The translations under genes and the position numbers were made by a program. From Chlorobiaceae bacterium (lineage in GTDB: Bacteria; Bacteroidota; Chlorobiia; Chlorobiales; Chlorobiaceae), in the NCBI GenBank assembly GCA_013335115.1, contig JAAXWQ010000002.1, positions 248,001 to 312,000 on the forward strand: a stretch of 64,000 bases of DNA. The letters are read 5' to 3'. The notes beneath the pieces are model-generated. The model did no database searches and had not been told where the DNA came from. It worked only from the letters and a program-made list of their open reading frames with translations. Below, in pieces: positions 30,511 through 63,783 of this stretch; position 1 is the stretch's first letter, and every line of letters starts with the position of its first letter.

Positions 30511-30528
30511 ATACAACAAGCGTGCCAG
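30511..30528 (-). promoter_or_regulatory. Sigma-54 (-24/-12) promoter of tolC-usp-emrA-emrB
   Basis: On the minus strand the sequence reads CTGGCACGCTTGTTGTA. GG is at 30526-30525, there are ten bases between, and GT stands where the consensus has GC. The -24 box TGGCACG is perfect and the -12 box TTGT has one deviation. The predicted start near 30501 leaves a 24-nt leader containing the tolC ribosome binding site. Confidence 0.65.
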
Positions 30529-30670: not shown

Positions 30671-32776
30671 ATGAACGACCGGATCCCCTCCGAATCCCGC
30701 CAGCTGATGCAGTACATCAGTGATGCCATCGGCACCATCCGCGACCCCCAGGAGCTTTTTCGCACGGTTACGGACAAGCTTCGGCTCATCTTCTCCTTCG
30801 ATTCCGCGGTCATCGTCACGGTCGACCGGGAGCGGCGCTACCTCAGCCTCTTCTTTGAGATGCTCCGGTTCAGCCTTCCGGACAACATCAGCCGCCAGAA
30901 GCGCCTGATTGCGGGCTCCTGGTTCGAACACCGCCTCGAAGAGCGTACGGTGACGACGGTGAGCATCGAACGGGAGGTCCCGGGGCCCGAAGATCCCGAT
31001 ACGCCGGTATTCAAGACGCTCCACGAACTCGGCATGCGCCAGCTCGTGCTCGCTCCGCTGCGTGTCGGCGGACGGGTAATCGGCTTCCTGAACTTCGTTT
31101 CGAAGGAGGAGCGCGAGTGGTCCGAGGCCGACCGGGAGTTGCTCGCGGTGGTCTCGGCGCCCATCGCCATCGCCGTCAGCAACGCCCTTGCCTTCGAGGA
31201 GCTCCGCCAGCGGGAGGCGGAGACCGCCATGCAGCTCGCCGTCAACAACGCCCTGTTGACCATCCGCGACAGGAACCGCATGATGCTGGCGTTCTGCGAG
31301 CAGGTCGGCAAACTCCTGCCGTGCGCCTTCATCGGCATCAGGGCGCTCGGAGATGATGGCAAGTACCGGATTTTCGACAACTTCATTCGTGAACAGGGGA
31401 GCGGCTTCCAGTCCTTCTCGCCCCTCGAACGGCTCGATGTCGACGGCGACGAGGAGATCCTGCGGGAGACCATGGAGCTGATCTCCCGGCCGGGGGTCTA
31501 TGCCGGCAGCAGCTTCGACCGGCTTGCCGGGGAGTTTCGCCTGGTGTCGCTCGTCAAGGAGCGCTTCGGGTTCTGCTCGACCATCATCGTCCAGCTCTGG
31601 GATATTCCCGGCAGCAGGGCGGGGCTAATCATTTCTGCAACCGAAAGCGCCTTCAGCGAAACCGAGCTCACCACCGTTCGGCTCATCATGCCGCAGCTCA
31701 CGCTCGCCCTGCAGAACTTCCTCGCTTTCGAAGAGATCGACCGGCTGCGACGGAAGCTCGAAGGCGAGCGTACCTACCTGGTCGAGGAGATCCGGGCGGC
31801 GCACAACTTCGAGGAGATCATCGGCAGCAGCGGCCCGCTCGCTTCCGTGCTGCGCCGGGTGAGCCAGGTGGCGCCTACCGACGCGACGGTGCTGGTCCAG
31901 GGCGAGACCGGGACGGGCAAGGAGCTGATCGCCCGGGCGATCCACAACCTCTCCCCGAGGAAGGACCGGGTGCTGGTGAGGGTCAACTGCGCAGCCCTGC
32001 CGGCGGCGCTCATCGAGTCTGAGCTCTTCGGGCATGAAAGAGGGAGCTTCACCGGGGCGACCGAGCGTCGCATTGGCAAGTTCGAGCTGGCCGACGGCGG
32101 CACCATCTTTCTCGACGAGGTCGGGGAGATGCCGCTCGAGCTGCAGGCGAAGATGCTCAGGGTGCTCCAGGAGCGGGAGCTCGAGCGCATCGGCGGGCGG
32201 CAGGTGATCCCGGTCGACGTCCGCGTCATCGCAGCGACCAACCGGGACCTCGAACATGAGGTCGCCGAGGGGCGGTTTCGGGGCGACCTGTTCTTCCGCC
32301 TTAACGCATTCCCGCTCTCCCTTCCGCCGCTCAGGGAGCGTCGCGATGATATTCCCGTGCTGGCCATCCACTTTGCCGAAAAGCTCGCCCGGGAGTTCGG
32401 CAAGCCGTACCGGTCGATCCGTGAAGTGGATATGGCCGACCTTGCCGCCCGTCCCTGGCGGGGCAACATCCGAGAGCTTTCGCACTGCGTCGAGCAGGCG
32501 GTGATCCTGTCGGATGGGGCGTCGCTCGATTTTTCCGGCGTCCTGCCTTCGCGGATTCCCGAAACTCCCCTGCCCGACGGGAGCCGTCAGGCCACGATGA
32601 AGGAGTTCGAGGCGGAGGTGTCGAACCTGGAACGCCGGCTCATCCTCGATACCCTCGATCGATGCGGTGGACGGGTCAGCGGCGCGGGCGGCGCGGCCGA
32701 CCTGCTCAAGGTCAACGCCAAGACCCTCTACTCCCGCATCGGGAAACTGGGGATCAGGAAGCGCTACCGGGAATAG
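30671..32776 (+). CDS. Sigma-54-dependent transcriptional activator with GAF domains (FhlA-like)
   Basis: 701 residues. N-terminal part: one GAF-like domain near 25-180 ([15 protein letters not shown]...[26 protein letters not shown]) and a second, more divergent one near 200-370. Then a sigma-54 AAA+ domain with Walker [16 protein letters not shown] near 411, the loop GSFTGAT near 458 (the common form is GAFTGA), [25 protein letters not shown], and the arginine-finger region [28 protein letters not shown] Fis-type helix-turn-helix is at the C-terminus ([28 protein letters not shown]). The frame is open back to 30350, overlapping tolC; the ATG at 30671 is preferred. It is divergent from the tolC-emrB operon, its likely target. 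The signal is unknown. Confidence 0.92.
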
Positions 32777-53467: not shown

Positions 53468-55306
53468 ATGTGTGGAATTGTCGGTTACATCGGCAAGCGT
53501 GAAGCGGCGCCGATTCTGCTCAACGGCCTGAAGCGGCTCGAGTATCGGGGTTACGATTCGGCCGGCATCGCCGTGGTCAATGGAGAGATGCAGGTGCTGA
53601 AGCGGAAAGGAAGTGTCAGCAACCTCGAGGAGTTCATGTCGGGCACCGTGATGATCGGCGCCACGGCAGGCATCGCCCATACTCGCTGGGCCACCCACGG
53701 CTCTCCGAGCGACCGGAACGCCCACCCGCACATGAACGTTTCAGGGGACATCGCCCTGATCCACAACGGCATCGTCGAAAACTATACCAGCCTGAAGAAG
53801 GACCTGATAGGGCAGGGATACGCGTTCACCAGCGAAACCGATTCCGAGGTGCTGGTACACCTGATCGACCGTATCTGGAAAGCAGATCCGTCGCTCGACC
53901 TCGAAGGTGCCGTGCGCCAGGCGCTCCGCCATGTCGAAGGCGCTTACGGCCTTTGCATCGTCTCATCGCGCGAGCCCGACAAGATCGTCGTGGCGCGCAA
54001 GGGAAGCCCGCTGGTGATCGGTATCGGCGAGGGTGAGTATTTCATCGCTTCCGATGCGGCCCCTATCGTTGAACACACCAACAAGGTGGTCTACCTCTCC
54101 GACGGCGAGATGGCGGTCGTCACCCGCAACAACTACACGGTCAAGACGATTGAGAACGTCGAGCAGGAGAAGCGGATCACGGAGCTCGATTTCAGCCTCG
54201 AAAAGATCGAAAAGGGCGGTTACGAGCACTTCATGCTCAAAGAGATCTTCGAGCAGCCGGAAGTGATGCGCGACGTGATGCGCGGCAGGGTCCGCCTCGA
54301 CGAAGGGCGGATACAGCTCGGCGGCATCGAGGACTACCTCGACCGGCTGAAGCAGGCAAAGCGCATCGTCATTTGCGCCTGCGGCACCAGCTGGCATGCC
54401 GGCCTGATCGGCGAGTACCTGATCGAGGAGTTCGCCCGCATACCGGTCGAGGTAGACTATGCCTCCGAGTTCAGGTACCGCAACCCCATCGTCACCTCCG
54501 ACGACGTGGTGATCGTCATCTCCCAGTCCGGAGAAACCGCTGATACACTGGCTGCACTGAGGCTCGCCAAGGAGAAGGGCGCCATGGTGATGGGTATCTG
54601 CAACGTGGTCGGGTCGACCATCGCCCGCGAGACCCTCTGCGGCATGTACACCCATGCCGGACCCGAGGTCGGCGTGGCCTCCACCAAGGCCTTCACGGCC
54701 CAGGTGATCGTGCTCTTCATGCTGGCCATGGCCCTGAGCAAGGGGCGCACCATCTCACACGACGAGATCCGCCTCTACCTGCGCGACCTGGCCGATGTGC
54801 CCGACAAGGTCGCGAGGATCCTCGAACAGAACGATGCCATCAAAGAGATCGCCGCCGAGTTCAAGGACGCGAAGAACGCGCTCTACCTCGGCAGGGGCTT
54901 CAACTTCCCCGTCGCGCTCGAAGGGGCGCTCAAGCTGAAGGAGATCTCCTACATCCACGCCGAAGGCTACCCGGCAGCCGAGATGAAGCACGGGCCGATC
55001 GCCCTCATCGACGAGGATATGCCGGTCTTCTTCATCGCCACCAGGGACAACACCTACACCAAGATCATCAGCAACATCGAGGAGGTCCGCAGCCGCAAAG
55101 GGCGCGTGATCGCCATCGCGAGCGAGGGGGACAGCGAGATCGGACGCCTCGCCGAGCATGTGATCTACATTCCCCAGGCCTCCGGGCCGGTGATGCCGCT
55201 CCTGACCGTCATCCCGATGCAGCTCCTCGCCTACCACATTGCCACGCTCCGCGGCTGCAACGTCGACCGTCCCCGAAACCTCGCCAAGTCGGTCACCGTG
55301 GAGTGA
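53468..55306 (+). CDS. glmS: Glucosamine-fructose-6-phosphate aminotransferase (isomerising)
   Basis: Makes glucosamine-6-phosphate from fructose-6-phosphate and glutamine, the entry to amino-sugar and cell-wall synthesis. 612 residues: N-terminal glutaminase with Cys2 (MCGIVGYIGKREAAPILLNGLKRLEYRGYDSAGIAVV) and HTRWATHGSPSDRNAHPH, then two SIS isomerase domains (CACGTSWHAGLIGEYLIEEFARIPVEVDYASEFRYR, SQSGETADTLAALRLAKEKG, YPAAEMKHGPIALIDEDMPV) and the C-terminal NVDRPRNLAKSVTVE. AAGGGA precedes the ATG. Confidence 0.97.
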   Translation: MCGIVGYIGKREAAPILLNGLKRLEYRGYDSAGIAVVNGEMQVLKRKGSVSNLEEFMSGTVMIGATAGIAHTRWATHGSPSDRNAHPHMNVSGDIALIHNGIVENYTSLKKDLIGQGYAFTSETDSEVLVHLIDRIWKADPSLDLEGAVRQALRHVEGAYGLCIVSSREPDKIVVARKGSPLVIGIGEGEYFIASDAAPIVEHTNKVVYLSDGEMAVVTRNNYTVKTIENVEQEKRITELDFSLEKIEKGGYEHFMLKEIFEQPEVMRDVMRGRVRLDEGRIQLGGIEDYLDRLKQAKRIVICACGTSWHAGLIGEYLIEEFARIPVEVDYASEFRYRNPIVTSDDVVIVISQSGETADTLAALRLAKEKGAMVMGICNVVGSTIARETLCGMYTHAGPEVGVASTKAFTAQVIVLFMLAMALSKGRTISHDEIRLYLRDLADVPDKVARILEQNDAIKEIAAEFKDAKNALYLGRGFNFPVALEGALKLKEISYIHAEGYPAAEMKHGPIALIDEDMPVFFIATRDNTYTKIISNIEEVRSRKGRVIAIASEGDSEIGRLAEHVIYIPQASGPVMPLLTVIPMQLLAYHIATLRGCNVDRPRNLAKSVTVE

Positions 55307-55391: not shown

Positions 55392-55552
55392 CTCCCCTCT
55401 TGCCCTTCTTCGTTCCTTTCCAGGCCCCGTCGCCTCCCCCTTTTGCTTTGCCCCAAGAGTTCGCCCCTTCGTCGTGCGGCGACGGACTACGCTCGCACTC
55501 ATGCAGCAGGCCCGGGATTACGCCGCTGAATCCATTTTTCTCCTTTTTATGC

Positions 55553-55582
55553 TTGAGACGTCTCAAAATGAGAATTATTCTC
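55553..55582. promoter_or_regulatory. Two adjacent palindromes, candidate enhancer site
   Basis: TTGAGACGTCTCAA (55553-55566) is a perfect 14-bp palindrome, and GAGAATTATTCTC (55570-55582) is a perfect 6-1-6 inverted repeat. Both lie about 93-122 bp upstream of the -12 element of the sigma-54-type promoter at 55660, a usual distance for bound activators. Confidence 0.6.
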
Positions 55583-55659
55583 GGTTTGAGCACCATTCGC
55601 GCGTGCTGGCAGGGTGTCTTTTACGCTTTTGCGTACCTCTTTTTCGTACTTAGATGGCT

Positions 55660-55677
55660 TTGGCACGCGTCTTGCAG
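55660..55677 (+). promoter_or_regulatory. Sigma-54 (-24/-12) promoter of the flp-tad operon
   Basis: TTGGCACGCGTCTTGCA matches the -24/-12 consensus TTGGCACG-N4-TTGCA at all fixed positions. GG is at 55662-55663 and GC at 55674-55675 with ten bases between. The predicted start is near 55687, giving a 150-nt leader to flp. Confidence 0.8.
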
Positions 55678-55839
55678 TAAATACTTCGAGGCGTAGTCCT
55701 GAGCTGCTCCATTCTCATGGATGATTCAGGAAAATGTCTTAACCGATCTGATTCCAGAGGCCTGAACGGCTTGCCCGGGAAGGCTTTTGGGAGAGGAAAT
55801 CATAGCTGATCATCATTCTAACCATCTGGAGAAAAAATC

Positions 55840-56130
55840 ATGAAAAAGATGCTTGATACCCTTGTTTCCTTTGCGGCATTTGGTTTTGGCGGCACGGCTA
55901 CGGACGACTCTGGTGCGTATGACGACTTGCTGTTACCAGCTCAGCCCGACAAGGTATTCTCCATCAAATCACAGAAAGGCGTCACCATGATCGAGTATGC
56001 CTTGATTGCCGGTTTGATTTCTGTTGTCGCGATTGGATTTCTTACTAGCGCAGGACAACATGTGACCAGTATTTTTACGGACATCAGTACTGCCCTGGGT
56101 ACTGCTGCGGGTACTGGTGGTGCAGACTGA
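55840..56130 (+). CDS. flp: Flp/Fap type IVb pilin with long leader
   Basis: Major subunit of the Tad pilus. 96 residues. The class signature is KG-VTMIEYALIAGLISVVAIGFLTSAG: cleavage after Gly47 gives a mature pilin of 49 residues with Glu at +5 and Tyr at +6, as required in Flp pilins. The leader is 47 residues, much longer than the 10-25 usual in Flp pilins. It contains an acidic stretch (TDDSGAYDD) and a hydrophobic N-terminus. The start is supported by GGAG eight bases before ATG 55840. It is the first gene after the sigma-54-type promoter. Confidence 0.88.
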   Translation: MKKMLDTLVSFAAFGFGGTATDDSGAYDDLLLPAQPDKVFSIKSQKGVTMIEYALIAGLISVVAIGFLTSAGQHVTSIFTDISTALGTAAGTGGAD

Positions 56131-56165: not shown

Positions 56166-56975
56166 GTGAAACTACCACTCTTTGCTGCCATCGCACTCAC
56201 TCTGGGGGCGATGGCAGCATTCGCCGCCGCCCGCCTGGTGGGCGTCGCCCAAACAGGGCCCAGGGTCGTCATCGTTGAGCAGCCCATCGAAGCAGGAAAA
56301 GCCATTAGAGCAGATCAAATCAAGGCCATCGATTGGTCAGGCTCGACCGTACCGCACGAAGCATCCGCTCGCACCACCGACGTGGTCGGTCGAATTGCCA
56401 TCGTGTCCATGATCCCGGGTGAGCCGGTCCTGCCAGGCAAATTGGCCCCGAAAAACGCCACTGGCGGGTTATCATCGATCATCCCCGAGGGCAAACGCGC
56501 CATTACGGTTCGGGTGAACGAGGTGATTGCGGTTGCCGGATTTGCCCTGCCGGGGAGCTTTGTGGATGTGTTGGCCAGCGGCAAGGACGCCGACAACCAG
56601 CCGTTTTCGCGAACCGTGCTGTCGCGCGTCAAGGTATTGGCCGTGGCCCAGGAAACCACGGCAGACCAGGCCAAGCCAAAAGTGGTCAATGCCGTAACCC
56701 TCGAGCTGACGCCGCTCGAATCTGAAAAGCTCGACCTGGCCCGCAACATCGGGGTGCTTTCCCTGGTCTTGCGCAACGAGCTCGACACCAGCGAAATAAA
56801 CTCCGCAGGTGTCCGCCTGCCCGACATCGTCAATCCGCAGTCCACTCGTGCAGCCTCCGCTTCGCCGGCGGCACCGGCGGTGCCGGCTACGCATACGGTA
56901 AGGGCATCTTCGCGTCAAAGCCGTGGACCTGAAGAGATCCGTGGCACCAGTCGCCAAACCGTTGCCATCCCCTAA
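56166..56975 (+). CDS. cpaB: Flp pilus assembly protein CpaB (RcpC)
   Basis: 269 residues, probable GTG start at 56166. A membrane helix (LPLFAAIALTLGAMAAFAAARLVG) is followed by a SAF-like domain (VVIVEQPIEAGKAIRADQIKAIDWSGSTVPHEA) and the RcpC domain (ITVRVNEVIAVAGFALPGSFVDVLASG, then TLELTPLESEKLDLARNIGVLSLVLRNELD). CpaB helps the secretin assemble in the periplasm. The C-terminus is Pro/Ala rich. It follows flp by 35 bp; the prepilin peptidase gene often found between them is absent here. Confidence 0.88.
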   Translation: MKLPLFAAIALTLGAMAAFAAARLVGVAQTGPRVVIVEQPIEAGKAIRADQIKAIDWSGSTVPHEASARTTDVVGRIAIVSMIPGEPVLPGKLAPKNATGGLSSIIPEGKRAITVRVNEVIAVAGFALPGSFVDVLASGKDADNQPFSRTVLSRVKVLAVAQETTADQAKPKVVNAVTLELTPLESEKLDLARNIGVLSLVLRNELDTSEINSAGVRLPDIVNPQSTRAASASPAAPAVPATHTVRASSRQSRGPEEIRGTSRQTVAIP

Positions 56976-56986
56976 CCAACACGAAC

Positions 56987-58735
56987 ATGACTTTACCATG
57001 CTTCATGCGTTCGGCCTGCAGGATGAGTGCCCTGGTGGCGCTTGCCGGCACCGTGCCTGTGGCCGCCAAGGCCGCTCCTGAATCCTTGCCCACCAAGTCC
57101 TCTCCGGCTCCTGTGGTCGCCAAGGCGGCCCCTGAATCGATGCCTGCCAAGGCCTCCCTGGTGCTCGCGGGCCCCAAGGCTTCCCCGGTACCCGGGTCCG
57201 CCAGGGCCACAGTACCCACAGCCGGCAAGTCATCCCGGGTAGCGGTGGCCACCAGGTCCTTGCCGGTACCCGCGACCGCGAACGCCTCGCCGGTACGCCT
57301 GGCCTCCAGGAACCCGGTACCTGTTACCGCCAACTCCTCTCCGGTGCCCGTGGCCGCAATGGCCCCACCCACGGCCTACCTTGTGCCTGTGGGCGAATCC
57401 AGGGTCTATCGGCTCGAGCGCCCCGTTAAACGTGTTGCCGTGGGTAACCCCGAGGTGGCCGACTACCTTATGCTCAATGCCTCCGAGCTTTATCTGCTTG
57501 GCAAGAAACCTGGCACAACCAATCTTGTCGTCTGGGACCAACAGGGAAACTTCATCTCCACGCCGCTGCAGGTCAGCCGCAACATGAGCCCCGTAAAGGC
57601 CTTGTTGAAAGTCGTCTTGCCGAAAGAGAACGACGTTCGGATCTTTGCCTCGGGGCCGGCGGTGGTACTGGAGGGCTCCGTATCTGACGCCATGGCTGCT
57701 GAGACCGTCACGCGCCTGGTAAAAGCGTATCTGGGTGGCACGGTCCCGGGTGTCAACCCCGAATCAACCCTGGCGAACAGTGCCGCCGCCCCTGCCTATG
57801 CGACGCCAACCAGTTTGTCTGGCTTGGCCACTGGTGCCTCGGGCTCTGCGGCATCGGCCAGCACGCAGGGTGCGGCCAACAGTGCGGCTTCTGCCGGCAT
57901 ACCCGGCCTGGTCAACCTCCTCAAGGTCCGCGATCCGCAGCAGGTCCGGCTCGAAGTCCGCATTGCCGAAGTTTCCAGGTCCTACATCGAAAGCTTGGGC
58001 CTCGGCTGGCAGCAAGGCTTGGGCACTACCCAGGGCAGCCTCATGACCGGTTTTGTCAGCAACGCAACGCTCGACCTCCTGCTGCAGGCTAAGTACGACC
58101 CCATTACCAAGACCACTGTAGGCAACCGTCTCCTGGCGGACGCCGAGCGCAAGACCAGTTTGTTTAAAATCCTGGCTGAGCCCACCATTGTCGCCATGAG
58201 TGGCCAGGAAGGGTACTTCCTGGTTGGCGGTAAGATTTACACGCCTACCGTCACCTCCAACGGAGCAATCGACTACGTCGAGCGGACCTATGGCGTGGGT
58301 TTGCGATTTACGCCCACCGTGCTGGATGCCGGCCGTATTTCGCTGAGGGTTGCCCCTGAGGTTTCCGAGCCCCTCAAGGATGCCGTTTTTTCGGGAACGA
58401 CTACCGGCACGTTGCTGCCCGCCTTTAAAACCAGTTACGCTTCCACCACCGTCCAGATGAACGAAGGGGAAAACCTGGTGATTGGCGGCCTGTTGCGCGA
58501 CAATCTCAACGACGTCATCCGGGCAGTGCCTTTGCTGGGTGACATCCCCATCCTCGGCGCGCTGTTCCGGCATACCGAGATGAGTTCTGAAACAACCGAG
58601 CTCATGGTCATCATTCGCCCCGTCCTGGTCAAAGCCAGTGCCTCCGCACCGGAGCTTCCTACCGACAGGGTCGCATCGCCGACACGCAAAGAGCTGTTCA
58701 TCGACGGAAAGATTCACGGTTCACGGGTAAAATGA
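56987..58735 (+). CDS. cpaC: Tad pilus secretin (CpaC/RcpA)
   Basis: Outer-membrane channel of the Tad machine. 582 residues: signal peptide (to about residue 28), a low-complexity Pro/Ala/Val/Ser region near 28-124, the pilus N-terminal domain (YLVPVGESRVYRLERPVKRVAVGNPEVADYLMLNASELYLLGKKPGTTNLVVWD), a BON-like stretch, and the secretin core from about 310 (QVRLEVRIAEVSRSYIESLGLGWQ, FKILAEPTIVAMSGQEGYFLVGGKI, VGLRFTPTVLDAGRISLRVAPEVSE, ENLVIGGLLRDN...PLLGDIPILGALFR). The Pro/Ala-rich segment is an addition to the usual layout. Its stop overlaps tadE as ATGA. Confidence 0.92.
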   Translation: MTLPCFMRSACRMSALVALAGTVPVAAKAAPESLPTKSSPAPVVAKAAPESMPAKASLVLAGPKASPVPGSARATVPTAGKSSRVAVATRSLPVPATANASPVRLASRNPVPVTANSSPVPVAAMAPPTAYLVPVGESRVYRLERPVKRVAVGNPEVADYLMLNASELYLLGKKPGTTNLVVWDQQGNFISTPLQVSRNMSPVKALLKVVLPKENDVRIFASGPAVVLEGSVSDAMAAETVTRLVKAYLGGTVPGVNPESTLANSAAAPAYATPTSLSGLATGASGSAASASTQGAANSAASAGIPGLVNLLKVRDPQQVRLEVRIAEVSRSYIESLGLGWQQGLGTTQGSLMTGFVSNATLDLLLQAKYDPITKTTVGNRLLADAERKTSLFKILAEPTIVAMSGQEGYFLVGGKIYTPTVTSNGAIDYVERTYGVGLRFTPTVLDAGRISLRVAPEVSEPLKDAVFSGTTTGTLLPAFKTSYASTTVQMNEGENLVIGGLLRDNLNDVIRAVPLLGDIPILGALFRHTEMSSETTELMVIIRPVLVKASASAPELPTDRVASPTRKELFIDGKIHGSRVK

Positions 58736-59208
58736 CTCCAATGTGCACAGATATCGCCAGGTTTCAGGTCCCGGCAACGGAAGGCGCCCAATCCCAAAAG
58801 GGCAATGTGCTGATCGAATTTGCGCTTATCCTGCCCTTGTTCCTGCTTCTCCTTTTCGGGGTGGTTACGTTTTCCGTAGCCTTGTACGATAAAACCATGC
58901 TCACCATGGCCACCCGTGAGGGCGCTCGTGCCGGAGCCATGTACGTTGCCACCTCCGCTGCCGACATGACGGCCACCAACACCGCAGCAGCCACTGCCGC
59001 CAAAGGCAAAACCGAAGCGCTCCTTAATAATAATATCAAACTCATCTCCTTTGCGTCTGGAAGCGTTACGCCCACGGTCACGGCTAGCGTTGATACAGGC
59101 ACCAAGAACATCAATGTCAAAGCCAGCATCTCGTTCACTGGACTCTATGTTCTTCCTGATGCAATGCAGATCGCAGCTGAATCTACGATGAGGACCGAAT
59201 ACCAATGA
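58732..59208 (+). CDS. tadE: TadE-like minor pseudopilin
   Basis: 158 residues. An N-terminal leader of about 24 residues ends in QKGNVLIEFALILPLFLLLLFG; the Gly before N and the Glu at +5 match the prepilin-peptidase site of TadE/TadF pseudopilins. A single membrane helix follows, then a soluble periplasmic part (TMATREGARAGAMYVATS is the usual TadE continuation). Overlaps cpaC and the following tadG-like gene by 4 bp each, so the three are translationally coupled. Confidence 0.85.
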   Translation: MTPMCTDIARFQVPATEGAQSQKGNVLIEFALILPLFLLLLFGVVTFSVALYDKTMLTMATREGARAGAMYVATSAADMTATNTAAATAAKGKTEALLNNNIKLISFASGSVTPTVTASVDTGTKNINVKASISFTGLYVLPDAMQIAAESTMRTEYQ

Positions 59209-60224
59209 CAAGGTCACACTACATCATCAAATGGTTGCCCGGACAGCGTGGCAGTGCCTCTATCTGGTTTGTCTTGTGCTTGCCGGTGTTGCTGGGATTT
59301 GCCGCTTTGTCGGTTGACCTGGCTCGCCTCAACCTCATCAAGGTCGAACTTCAAAACGCGGCCGACGCTGCTGCCCTGGGCGGTGCTTATGCCATCAGCG
59401 TCCCCTCTTCTTCGAAGAAGGACCAGCCTTACAACTGGACAGCGGCCATAGACAGGGCGACCAAGGTGGCAACATCCAACTTTGCCAACGGCGCGAAGAT
59501 TACGGATGCGACTGTTGAAACGGGTTACTGGAACCTTAAAGCCAGTGCCGTCGACGGCAAAAGCTGTGGAACCGGATGCGTCCCTTACGTCCGGGCAACG
59601 GTAACAATCTCCAGCACCGAAAACAACGGGCCCGTGAAGTTTTTTTTCGCCCCCATTTTTCATGTTGCCCAAAGTAACATTCAAGCCAGTGCCACTGCCG
59701 TGACAGGCCCACCCTCGGGCGGTACGGGCATGTTTCCCTGGGCCATCGATGAAAGTTTCCTGTTAAAAAACTGGAAAGCATATAAGCAAGGCAAAAGCCT
59801 GACTATCGCTTCCGTCTACAAAGGCGGCCATGGCCAATGGAGCAGCTTAATGGGAAATACCTCAGCGGACTCATACATAGATGGATTGATGACGAAAGGA
59901 AACTCAAACTATTTAGCTATAAACAGCTCCGACACCAAGATTTATATAGCAAATGGCGCAATGTCTAACCTGTATGGCGATGCGGCAGGCTTAATCGGTT
60001 CAGGCAAAATTTTTGCCGTACCCGTTGTTCAAACTCTTGCTCAAGGTTCCTCGGTACCAATCCTTGAGATTGCCGCTTTTCAAATTGACTCCGTTAAAAA
60101 GAACGGTGCCAACAGCACGGTTACGGGTCATTTCATCGATGGATATACTTTCCCCGGCCTCACCCTGGGCGATGGCCACGGGAAGTTATACGGCGCCTTC
60201 ACTGCACCAGTACTGGTCCAATAA
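59205..60224 (+). CDS. TadG-like pilus assembly protein
   Basis: 339 residues. The N-terminus GQRGSASIWFVLCLPVLLGFAALSVDLARLNLIKVELQNAADAAALGGAYAIS is the TadG/TadE membrane-anchor region. The rest is a soluble periplasmic domain without the von Willebrand A motif seen in classical TadG, so it is a shorter relative. The last third (59760-60060) is notably AT-rich compared with its surroundings. Role in the pilus base or tip is inferred. Lies between tadE and cpaE in the operon. Confidence 0.75.
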   Translation: MTRSHYIIKWLPGQRGSASIWFVLCLPVLLGFAALSVDLARLNLIKVELQNAADAAALGGAYAISVPSSSKKDQPYNWTAAIDRATKVATSNFANGAKITDATVETGYWNLKASAVDGKSCGTGCVPYVRATVTISSTENNGPVKFFFAPIFHVAQSNIQASATAVTGPPSGGTGMFPWAIDESFLLKNWKAYKQGKSLTIASVYKGGHGQWSSLMGNTSADSYIDGLMTKGNSNYLAINSSDTKIYIANGAMSNLYGDAAGLIGSGKIFAVPVVQTLAQGSSVPILEIAAFQIDSVKKNGANSTVTGHFIDGYTFPGLTLGDGHGKLYGAFTAPVLVQ

Positions 60225-60230
60225 ACACCC

Positions 60231-61382
60231 ATGAACATTACTCTTTACTCTCCCCGGCCATGGGAGGTCCCCGACACCCAGCTTGACCTGGGTCAGCACC
60301 AGCTGGTCCGACTGGTGGGCGAGCCTGGGGTTATGGTGCGCCAACTCAACGCGCAAGCCGCCGATCTCGTTTTTCTGGTGGGCTTTGACCCTGCCGAGCC
60401 CCGCTACATCCAAGAGGTTGAGAAACTCTGCCTCTCGCTGCCGCAAGCAGCCATCGTGGCCGTGCACCCACAGGCACAGCCCGAACTGTTGTTGACCCTT
60501 ATGCGCGCCGGTGTGCGTGAAGTCATCGTCGACAGCACCCCCGAAACCCTGCGACAGGTTATCGAGCGCGCCCGCCTTCGTGCCAAAGGCGCCAGCATCA
60601 GCCGGGGACGGGTTTTTGGGTTTGTCGCTTCCAAAGGGGGGGATGGCTGCTCCTGCATCGCGGCCAACCTGGCCTATGCGCTCGCACAAGTGCCCGAAAC
60701 CCGCGTGCTGGCCGTCGATCTTTCTTTACCTTTTGGCGACCTCGACATGTACCTCACCGGAGATAACCACCCGCAAGACCTGGCCGACATCTCCGGTCAA
60801 TCCGACAGGATCGACCAGTCGCTGCTCGACAGCATGGTGCAGCACCTCAACCCCACGCTCGACCTCATCCCCTCGCCCACGACGTTTGAAAAAATCGTTC
60901 AGATCGAACCCGAGCGCGTGAGCCAGCTGATTCAGCTTGCTACAAATTTTTACGACTACATCCTGGTTGACTTCGGCTCATCTTTTGACCAGGTCGGCAT
61001 CTGGGTCCTGGAGCACCTGAACGAACTCTGCATCGTATCCACCCCGTCGTTGCCGTCGCTGCGCAGGGCGGGCCAACTGCTCAAGCTCTGGAAAGAATTT
61101 GAAAAACCCATGTCGCGCGTCGAAATCATCCTCAACCGTGACGACACGAGCGCTCCCGTTTCCATTGCCGAAATCGAAAAAGTCATCGGCAGGCCCATTG
61201 ACAGACGCCTCCCCTCCGACGCCGAAGCCGTGCAGCAATCCCTTTTGATTGGTCAGCCTTTCCTGCACGTGGAACCCAGGTCCGAACTTTCCAAAACCAT
61301 CGTTGACTGGGCCGCGCAACTCACCGGCAACAGTCATCGTCATCGTAAACGCTCGCTATGGGAACGCTTAAAGATCAAATAG
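60231..61382 (+). CDS. cpaE: Pilus localisation ATPase CpaE/TadZ
   Basis: 383 residues: a receiver-like N-terminal domain (LVFLVGFDPAEPRYIQEVEKLCLSLPQAAIVAVHPQAQPELLLTLMRAGVREVI) and a ParA/MinD-like ATPase domain from about residue 125. The P-loop reads FVASKGGDGCSCIAANLAYAL, so the usual GK[ST] is replaced and the second lysine is absent; the switch regions LAVDLSLPFGDLDMYL and YILVDFGSSFDQVG remain. TadZ proteins position the Tad machine at a pole. Overlaps cpaF by 25 bp. Confidence 0.87.
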   Translation: MNITLYSPRPWEVPDTQLDLGQHQLVRLVGEPGVMVRQLNAQAADLVFLVGFDPAEPRYIQEVEKLCLSLPQAAIVAVHPQAQPELLLTLMRAGVREVIVDSTPETLRQVIERARLRAKGASISRGRVFGFVASKGGDGCSCIAANLAYALAQVPETRVLAVDLSLPFGDLDMYLTGDNHPQDLADISGQSDRIDQSLLDSMVQHLNPTLDLIPSPTTFEKIVQIEPERVSQLIQLATNFYDYILVDFGSSFDQVGIWVLEHLNELCIVSTPSLPSLRRAGQLLKLWKEFEKPMSRVEIILNRDDTSAPVSIAEIEKVIGRPIDRRLPSDAEAVQQSLLIGQPFLHVEPRSELSKTIVDWAAQLTGNSHRHRKRSLWERLKIK

Positions 61383-62797
61383 CCCGCTGGAACCTTTCCA
61401 CCAAACGGGTTACGGTTCCCCCGACATCGGTGCCTGGCGCCGCCGATGCGCCGGCACGACCTCAGGTCGTTGAGGCTCAGGCTTCGCCAGCACCATCGCC
61501 GGCGATAAAAGCCAAGGCTACCCCGGGGGTTGACTATTGCGCAACCAAAATGAAGTTGCACCAACAGCTGCTCACCCGCATCGATCTCAACTCCATCGAA
61601 AGCCTGACCCCCGAGCAGCTGCGCAACCAGCTTGGGGCTTTGCTGGTCGAGTTCATCGAAGAGGACTCCATCCCCCTCAATGATCGGGAACGCGCCAGGC
61701 TGGTGGCCGACCTCAAAAACGAGATCATGGGCCTTGGCCCTTTGGAGCCCTTGCTTGCCGACCCCGCCATTTCTGAAATCATGGTCAACGGCCATCAAAA
61801 CATCTTTGTCGAAAAAGGCGGATGCATTGAGAGTACCGACATCCGCTTCAACGACGATGCACACCTCATGAAAATCATCGACAAGATCGTCTCCCGTGTG
61901 GGACGGCGCATCGATGAATCCAGCCCCATGGCTGATTCACGCCTGCCCGATGGGGCCCGCGTCAACGCCATCATTCCGCCATTGGCCCTCGACGGCCCGG
62001 TCCTCACCATTCGGCGCTTTTCGGTGGTTCCGCTGCTCATGCACGACCTCATTGAAAAACACACACTGACGCCAGCCATGGCCGAACTGCTCTCGGCCCT
62101 GGTTAAGGTCAAGTGCAACATCATCATTTCCGGGGGGACCGGTACGGGCAAGACCACGCTGCTCAACATCCTCTCAAGCTTCATTCCAAGCAGCGAACGC
62201 ATCGTCACCATTGAAGACACTGCCGAACTGCAGCTTCAGCAGGACCATGTTATCCGCCTGGAAACGCGCCCGCCGAACATTGAAGGCAAAGGCGAAATCA
62301 CCATGCGCGCACTGGTGAAAAACTCCTTGCGCATGCGGCCCGACCGCATCGTGCTGGGCGAGATCCGCAGCGCCGAGGTGATCGACATGCTCCAGGCCAT
62401 GAACACCGGGCACGAGGGCTCGCTCACCACCATTCACGCCAACACCCCGCGGGATGCACTGAGCCGGCTCGAAAACCTGGTGGGGATGGGTGGCATCAGC
62501 CTTCCCGGCAAAGCCCTCCGGCAGCTCATTACCTCGTCGATTCACTTTATCGTCCAGGTCACCAGGCTGGATGACGGTAGCCGCAAGCTTACGAGCATCC
62601 AGGAAATCATCGGCATGGAGGGCGACATCATCACCACCCAGGAAATCTATTGCTACAAGCGCACCGGCACCAACCCGGACGGATCCGTGCAGGGAATGTT
62701 CAGCGCTACGGGCGTGCGTCCCAGGGTGTATGAAAAAATATGCACTTACGGTATTCGCCTCAGTGACGGCATGTTCGACCCCGGCGTCAACGATTAA
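61358..62797 (+). CDS. cpaF: Tad pilus motor ATPase (CpaF/TadA)
   Basis: Secretion ATPase that drives pilus polymerisation. 479 residues: N-terminal helical domain, ADPAISEIMVNGHQNIFVEKGG, RRIDESSPMADSRLPDGARVNAIIPPLALDGPVLTIRRF, Walker A IISGGTGTGKTTLLNILSSFIP near 260, the Asp box ERIVTIEDTAELQL, and Walker B with RPDRIVLGEIRSAEVIDMLQAMNTGHEGSLTTIHANTP. All catalytic motifs are intact. Starts inside the end of cpaE. Confidence 0.94.
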   Translation: MGTLKDQIARWNLSTKRVTVPPTSVPGAADAPARPQVVEAQASPAPSPAIKAKATPGVDYCATKMKLHQQLLTRIDLNSIESLTPEQLRNQLGALLVEFIEEDSIPLNDRERARLVADLKNEIMGLGPLEPLLADPAISEIMVNGHQNIFVEKGGCIESTDIRFNDDAHLMKIIDKIVSRVGRRIDESSPMADSRLPDGARVNAIIPPLALDGPVLTIRRFSVVPLLMHDLIEKHTLTPAMAELLSALVKVKCNIIISGGTGTGKTTLLNILSSFIPSSERIVTIEDTAELQLQQDHVIRLETRPPNIEGKGEITMRALVKNSLRMRPDRIVLGEIRSAEVIDMLQAMNTGHEGSLTTIHANTPRDALSRLENLVGMGGISLPGKALRQLITSSIHFIVQVTRLDDGSRKLTSIQEIIGMEGDIITTQEIYCYKRTGTNPDGSVQGMFSATGVRPRVYEKICTYGIRLSDGMFDPGVND

Positions 62798-62811: not shown

Positions 62812-63783
62812 ATGAACAAGGTTTTACTCCCGTTCCTGGCTTTTGTGGCCGTCATGCTGATCATGTTGCTCCTCTATGGGGTGTGGGTCTACGTTTTCGA
62901 CCGCAGCAACCAGGCCAGGAAAAAACAGCGCTTGCAGACTATCCACAACGCCGTTCAGCCGGGCGGGCACAACCTGGACAGCGTGCAAGCCAGCCGGCAG
63001 GAGCGTGCACTCGAAACCTGGCTGCGCTCACGCTCCAGGACATTTGAACTACTTGAAAACCTGGCCAGGCAAGCCCACAGCCCGATCTCTGCCGGGCGCT
63101 TGGTGGGCATCATGCTCGCCTTTTTTACGGTGGTTGTGGTGCTTGGACTGCTGCGCCAGGCAAACCCTTTGCTCATGCTGGTGCTTGCGGTCGCCATCGC
63201 CGGTACGCCGGTCCTGTGGTTACGTCGAAAGGCCAGTCGACGCCGCCAGGCCTTCGGAGACAAGCTCCCGGAAGCGATCGACTACATTTCGCGGGCACTG
63301 CGCGCCGGCCACAGCCTCAGCACGGCCATCGGCATGCTTGGCAAGGAGTTCCCAGACCCCATAGGCCATGAATTCAAAGCCGTCTCCGATGAAATCCTCT
63401 TCAGCATCCCGTTCAAAGACGCCATGGGCCAACTCGCCGATCGCGTGCAAAGCAATGACCTCAATTTCTTTGTCATCTCGCTCATGATCCAGCACGAAAC
63501 CGGCGGCAACCTCACCGAACTGCTTGACGGGCTGGCCAAAACCATGCGCGAACGTGTCAAGCTGCGCGGCAAGATCCGCACGCTCTCATCCGAAGGGCGC
63601 GTATCAGCGCTGATACTTGGTGGCATGCCGTTTGTGCTCACCGGCATCCTCCTGTTCATCAACCCCGTCTACATCTCGACGCTCTGGACCACTCCCCAGG
63701 GCCAGAATCTCATTTCCATCGGTGGCGGGCTCATGGTTGTTGGCTTCCTCCTGCTCAACCGCATCATCCAGATCAAGGTTTAA
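62812..63783 (+). CDS. tadB: Tad inner-membrane platform protein TadB
   Basis: 323 residues with N-terminal membrane helix, central helices, and the T2SSF domain of pilus platform proteins: RQAFGDKLPEAIDYISRALRAGHSLSTAIGMLGKEFPDPIGHEFKAVSDEI, then QSNDLNFFVISLMIQHETGGNLTELLDGLAKTMRERVKLRGKIRTLSSEGRVSA and two C-terminal helices. Partner of TadC. Follows cpaF by 14 bp. Confidence 0.92.
   Translation: MNKVLLPFLAFVAVMLIMLLLYGVWVYVFDRSNQARKKQRLQTIHNAVQPGGHNLDSVQASRQERALETWLRSRSRTFELLENLARQAHSPISAGRLVGIMLAFFTVVVVLGLLRQANPLLMLVLAVAIAGTPVLWLRRKASRRRQAFGDKLPEAIDYISRALRAGHSLSTAIGMLGKEFPDPIGHEFKAVSDEILFSIPFKDAMGQLADRVQSNDLNFFVISLMIQHETGGNLTELLDGLAKTMRERVKLRGKIRTLSSEGRVSALILGGMPFVLTGILLFINPVYISTLWTTPQGQNLISIGGGLMVVGFLLLNRIIQIKV

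Follow-up and report, generated by a model that had tools for sequence, protein, structure and literature searches.

The Tad pilus operon of this Chlorobiaceae genome is probably one output of a shared sigma-54 cell-surface regulon that has the response regulator encoded at C25:146416-147861 as its activator. A promoter match, a site motif, the genome-wide pairing of the two, and their partial conservation in a relative were all seen in the sequence. The window, the whole 64,000-nucleotide stretch that was analyzed (C1:248001-312000), belongs to a genome of 2.1 Mb in 29 contigs that is 99.6% complete, and the relatives with the same Tad genes are Chlorobiaceae. By Pfam, the locus is a full Tad/Flp locus, with genes in the order Flp pilin, RcpC/CpaB, secretin, TadE/G, TadZ-like and TadA ATPases, two TadB/C proteins, and prepilin peptidase. 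It is preceded by glmS (53468-55306) and runs on the plus strand from the Flp/Fap pilin gene flp (55840-56130; PF04964, 54 bits) through rcpC/cpaB (56166-56975; PF16976, PF08666), the rcpA/cpaC secretin gene (56987-58735; PF00263, PF13629), tadE (58732-59208; PF07811), a tadG-like gene (59205-60224; PF13400, PF09977), a tadZ/cpaE-like gene named by its operon position (60231-61382; PF13614), the tadA ATPase gene (61358-62797; PF00437, 224 bits), and tadB (62812-63783; PF00482). The genes for TadC and the prepilin peptidase follow past the window end (L010:1-750 and 747-1460; PF00482, PF01478). Convergent with the end of the operon, on the minus strand, is a gene for a PAS-PAS hybrid histidine kinase (L010:1457-3433), a possible partner of an orphan response regulator.

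Upstream of flp lies a sigma-54 -24/-12 element, TGGCACGCGTCTTGCA (55661-55676, plus strand), that is a perfect consensus. Read from one base earlier, TTGGCACGCGTCTTGCA (55660-55676) has zero mismatches to TGGCACG-N4-TTGCW with its GG and GC 10 bp apart, and it is the sole perfect match in the window. The original prediction of a full consensus fit was therefore borne out, and we obtained the same predicted start from the element, 55687. The predicted 5' leader of flp would be 153 nt long (55687-55839, plus strand); it has a fold z-score of -1.9 and matched no Rfam family. In the 2.1-Mb genome, TGGCACGN4TTGCA occurs perfectly twice, at the flp promoter and at the nifH promoter, the latter adjoining a nifA-like gene (517 bits against a NifA cut-off of 528.9). 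The same genome has just one rpoN gene and codes for five activators in which the sigma-54 interaction domain is strong. Because about 0.65 perfect matches to TGGCACGN4TTGCW are expected from the composition of a genome this size, the element and the palindromes near it could be chance matches. That reading has very little to recommend it, given the position before a pilin gene, the retention of the site in a relative, and the pairing of a recurrent motif with such elements at nine promoters. We conclude that the flp sigma-54 promoter exists at the sequence level and very probably works as one. Elsewhere in the genome, a sigma-54-like site, TGGCACGCATTTTGCT, stands shortly upstream of an hsp20-like gene (L007; G000:C16:36853-36868, minus strand).

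The putative activator sites at flp form an array of dyads of the form TCTCA-N3-TGAGA. The central one, TCTCA-AAA-TGAGA (TCTCAAAATGAGA; 55561-55573, plus strand), matches at 10/10 positions and is one of 11 such sites in the genome. A second dyad, TCTCG-GTT-TGAGC (8/10; 55579-55591, plus strand), stands 18 bp downstream of it, and the relative G006 has a site, TATCATTTTGAGC, at the matching position of its flp region (L053). The third, TTTAT-GCT-TGAGA (55546-55558, plus strand), 15 bp upstream of the central dyad, is weak at 7/10, a grade that chance produces fairly often (0.29 expected per 135 positions). This anatomy revises an earlier reading in which two palindromes were themselves the activator sites. 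Both palindromes exist and are perfect, and activator sites are present, but the 14-bp palindrome TTGAGACGTCTCAA (55553-55566) is the junction of the upstream weak and central dyads, and the 6-1-6 palindrome GAGAATTATTCTC (55570-55582) is the junction of the central and downstream dyads. Their given distance of 93 to 122 bp upstream holds when counted to the -12 position. Singly, neither type is rare, with 9 perfect 14-bp and 27 perfect 6-1-6 palindromes in the 64-kb window; both types within 40 bp of each other were found in 0 of 5,000 shuffles of the flp intergenic stretch.

It had also been proposed that tolC and flp might have one activator in common, the GAF-domain protein encoded at 30671, acting through a GAAT..ATTC core present at both. 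The protein is a true member of the sigma-54 activators, and tolC, divergent from the activator gene, is preceded by a -24/-12 element with one mismatch (30512-30527, minus strand). However, the core arises at flp because the halves of two dyads abut, and the match to the flp motif never exceeds 6/10 in the intergenic stretch between tolC and the 30671 gene. Sharing the core is thus not meaningful, joint control by this activator is most improbable, and the C25:146416 regulator is favored instead.

Alternatively, the palindromes could be an operator of the Fur type overlying a sigma-70 promoter, TTGAGA-17-TATTCT (55553-55581), that would drive or repress transcription toward flp or toward a short RNA ending near 55645. 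TGAGAATTATTCTC does resemble a proteobacterial Fur box, two Fur-family proteins are present, and the flp upstream region holds a weak sigma-70 match, with its -35-like hexamer inside the 14-bp palindrome, and a terminator-like hairpin. Against this, no such box was found at the 30 feoA and 2 fur loci examined, save for three weak 10/12 matches in other families, and the feoA genes of relatives have, by eye, another common motif. Those near-matches elsewhere in the genome that we inspected lie inside coding sequence or beside non-iron genes, and the dyad array accounts for the letters better than a Fur box does. We consider this alternative highly unlikely, and the Fur-box reading of the 6-1-6 palindrome was dropped on account of the absence of the box from the feoA and fur loci examined in the family. 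As a separate observation, the common motif upstream of several Chlorobi feoA genes (L119-L133) is of the form TTATTTATATTnAnTCTAATTA and is perhaps the iron operator of the Chlorobi lineage.

The dyad motif itself was found by comparing the regions upstream of other good sigma-54 sites in the same genome, two of which are preceded by TCTCAGAATGAGA and TCTCAGGGTGAGA. In its perfect form, TCTCANNNTGAGA, the motif occurs 11 times genome-wide, where about 1 occurrence is expected and the reversed control gives 0. Of the 11 perfect dyads, 9 have a -24/-12 element 87 to 145 bp downstream on one strand, compared with 4.8% of background positions (binomial probability of about 7e-11, with a threshold that is post hoc, having been set after the data were seen). 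As for the remaining dyads, the one at C8:70284 (DUF4402 secreted protein) is 344 bp from its -24/-12 element, and the one at C20:30369 is paired with no such element. Five promoters have a second dyad 18 to 21 or 39 bp from the first, some of these matching at only 7-8/10. This spacing, together with a triple array before the Chlorobi-1 RNA, is expected of activator dimers sitting side by side. The flp promoter has the arrangement sought of upstream activator sites at sigma-54 promoters, namely, dyads about 80 to 200 bp upstream and often in tandem. Taken together, the perfect element and the recurrent paired sites give good support to the prediction that the Tad operon has a sigma-54 promoter and activator sites upstream of it.

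Beyond flp, the predicted targets include genes for a 46-residue membrane peptide (C17:21514), an outer membrane beta-barrel (C17:44445), an SLBB protein resembling exopolysaccharide export proteins (C25:15007), a secreted glycine-rich protein (C25:52445), a secreted protein with no Pfam match (C25:61271), and a secreted protein beside the activator that is chaperone-like by eye and has no Pfam match (C25:147991). Another is rfbA, for glucose-1-phosphate thymidylyltransferase (C25:388493), a name read from the sequence without a database search. Two more promoters, at C25:241755 and C25:242187, both face Chlorobi-1 RNA (RF01696), which is present in three tandem copies (L179; G000:C25:241478-242190) 3' of a malate dehydrogenase-like gene. 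The copies score 61.4, 58.3, and 48.5 bits, the last just below the gathering score of 50. The C25:242187 promoter has three dyads of 9/10 each, at intervals of 20 and 19 bp. From its predicted start (C25:242161), it is 11 nt to the first Chlorobi-1 match (C25:242150-242085), which is the 48.5-bit copy. No Chlorobi-1 RNA was found in the sample of G006, which covers about one-third of that genome. The RNA was reportedly published in 2010 as a candidate with no role assigned.

Next to the evidence from this genome stands a more limited conservation among relatives. On a matrix built from the sites of this genome, 8 of 33 Chlorobiaceae flp upstream regions score at least 13.5, a score seen in under 1% of shuffled regions; the majority of the 33 are without any sigma-54 element. 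Predicted sigma-54-type sites before Tad loci therefore recur in the family, in a subset only. The nearest parallel is the second flp gene of L053 in G006, which has TGGCACGCATCTTGCA and a similar leader; this flp is followed directly by a second tadA and has its own sigma-54-type promoter (L053:18900-20800). In the contig stretches sampled from G006, there are 84 sigma-54-like sites, 5 of which are preceded by a dyad that matches at 9/10 or better when G/T and A/C are allowed at the ends. These five are at the SLBB ortholog (50% identity), flp, a secreted-protein pair (L238), and two weaker elements. Of the TGGCAY promoters sampled in G006, those paired with a good site are at flp, the SLBB ortholog, and a secreted-protein gene, and just one dyad in the sample is exact, that of the L238 pair. 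At the Tad locus of L055, a 9/10 dyad lies 225 bp upstream, and no dyad was found at the other sigma-54-type Tad promoters examined in the family. Likewise, the second Tad locus of this genome (L076; G000:C10:56001-74000), whose TadA is 87% identical, has neither a sigma-54 element nor dyads. At the DNA level, a search of 86 family genomes with the flp promoter region gave only short matches outside its own genome. Because most Tad promoters in the family are without a dyad or a sigma-54 element, this control does not hold for Chlorobi Tad loci in general. In G016, flp plus cpaB occurs three times at 732-bp intervals (L079:3495-5200), with two copies holding only the start of cpaB; this is a tandem duplication of the pilin region, and L081 (G003) is similar.

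Which activator would bind the flp array? The response regulator encoded at C25:146416-147861 has a receiver domain (PF00072), a sigma-54 domain with GAFTGA (PF00158), and a Fis-type helix-turn-helix (HTH) (PF02954) and is thus of the NtrC type. Between its gene and the next one stand a perfect dyad and CGGCATGATTTTTGCA, and because this perfect site and -24/-12 element follow its gene, we regard this regulator as the likeliest candidate. Its ortholog in G006 is 74% identical with neighbors kept, and the dyad beside that ortholog is missing. Of the other activator genes, the nifA-like one adjoins nifH, and that at 30671 lies across from tolC. It is possible, though rather unlikely, that the same promoter and sites are served by another activator, either the single-domain protein encoded at C25:228438 or the two-component regulator encoded at C25:196435-197844, as both have a sigma-54 domain and a Fis-type HTH. 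In G106 (L105), moreover, GCTCATGATGAGA and a -24/-12 element come after the gene for a 68% identical ortholog of the latter. On the other hand, no TCTCA-N3-TGAGA was found in the stretches examined around either gene, and the palindrome that comes after C25:196435-197844 is another one, TTCGACCAAGTGGTCGAA, with a matching CGACC-N4-GGTCG also in G106 (L105). The presence of these palindromes at both orthologs suggests that this regulator owns a separate site, a conclusion on which GCTCATGATGAGA in L105 leaves some doubt. The histidine kinase/sigma-54 response regulator pair to which this gene belongs (G000:C25:196435-199861) and its counterpart in L105 each have downstream of them both CGACC-N4-GGTCG palindromes and a -24/-12 element, TGGTACGATTCTTGA here and TGGCATGTTATTTGCT in L105; the pair perhaps marks a second small sigma-54 regulon.

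With the C25:146416 regulator as the preferred activator, the system would work as follows. The regulator, most likely the GAFTGA protein of G000:C25:146416-147861, would bind the tandem TCTCA-N3-TGAGA dyads about 70 to 115 bp upstream of the -24 element, and RpoN-RNA polymerase would transcribe the Tad operon from a +1 near 55687. The same unit of array and promoter would drive about nine other promoters, those of the outer membrane barrel, the SLBB protein, rfbA, the secreted proteins, and the chaperone-like gene and the two facing Chlorobi-1. Here, we infer binding, RpoN dependence, activator identity, signal, and physiological role from the DNA.

Several known systems resemble this one. 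Tad loci were fairly described in the original prediction as mostly known with other controls, though in Desulfovibrio vulgaris pili operons are reportedly under the sigma-54 response regulator DVU2114 (PMC4641369). The likeness, drawn without a comparison of site motifs, is that of a response-regulator sigma-54 activator over pili. DVU2114 has a locus number next to one of the pili operons under it, whereas the Tad cluster here holds no activator, and the regulon here is spread over the genome and includes a small RNA. In the PrsK-PrsR/RpoN system, PEP-CTERM surface genes for aggregation are driven by RpoN, probably together with a response regulator of the Fis type, and a predicted enhancer is upstream (PMC9850573). 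RpoN, a Fis-type regulator, surface genes, and an upstream enhancer would be features in common; the gene set differs, and the regulator here scores 370 bits against the PrsR cut-off of 502.6 (TIGR02915). At 369.8 bits, below that equivalog cut-off, the C25:146416 regulator is without PrsR status, and the C25:196435 regulator is also below it (389.8 bits). Within the same genome, NifA-nifH has the same -24/-12 class with its activator gene beside the target and is without TCTCA-N3-TGAGA (best match upstream of nifH, 6/10). The literature gives a weak sigma-54 enrichment of nitrogen-fixation genes in Chlorobiia, and a limited search of open-access papers found no description of a sigma-54 regulon beyond nitrogen fixation for Chlorobi. 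The Chlorobi regulon and its link to Chlorobi-1 would thus be new predictions, whereas sigma-54 control of pili already has its Desulfovibrio precedent.

In Vibrio, the sigma-54 response regulator LuxO drives the Qrr small-RNA genes along with surface behavior. The predicted Chlorobi circuit is similar in that it has a sigma-54 regulator over both small-RNA and surface genes, and we know of no relation of Chlorobi-1 to Qrr. As a speculative extension, one response regulator may, via sigma-54, switch on both surface genes (Tad pili, exopolysaccharide export, and secreted proteins) and Chlorobi-1 RNAs, which would adjust surface or metabolic mRNAs in a Qrr-like attachment or aggregation circuit. 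The predicted regulon comprises about ten promoters and has both a defined site and a candidate activator. It would link the Tad pili with genes for exopolysaccharide and secreted proteins and would provide a first handle on when Chlorobi-1 RNA is made, in a group of green sulfur phototrophs whose mats and consortia are underlain by surface attachment.
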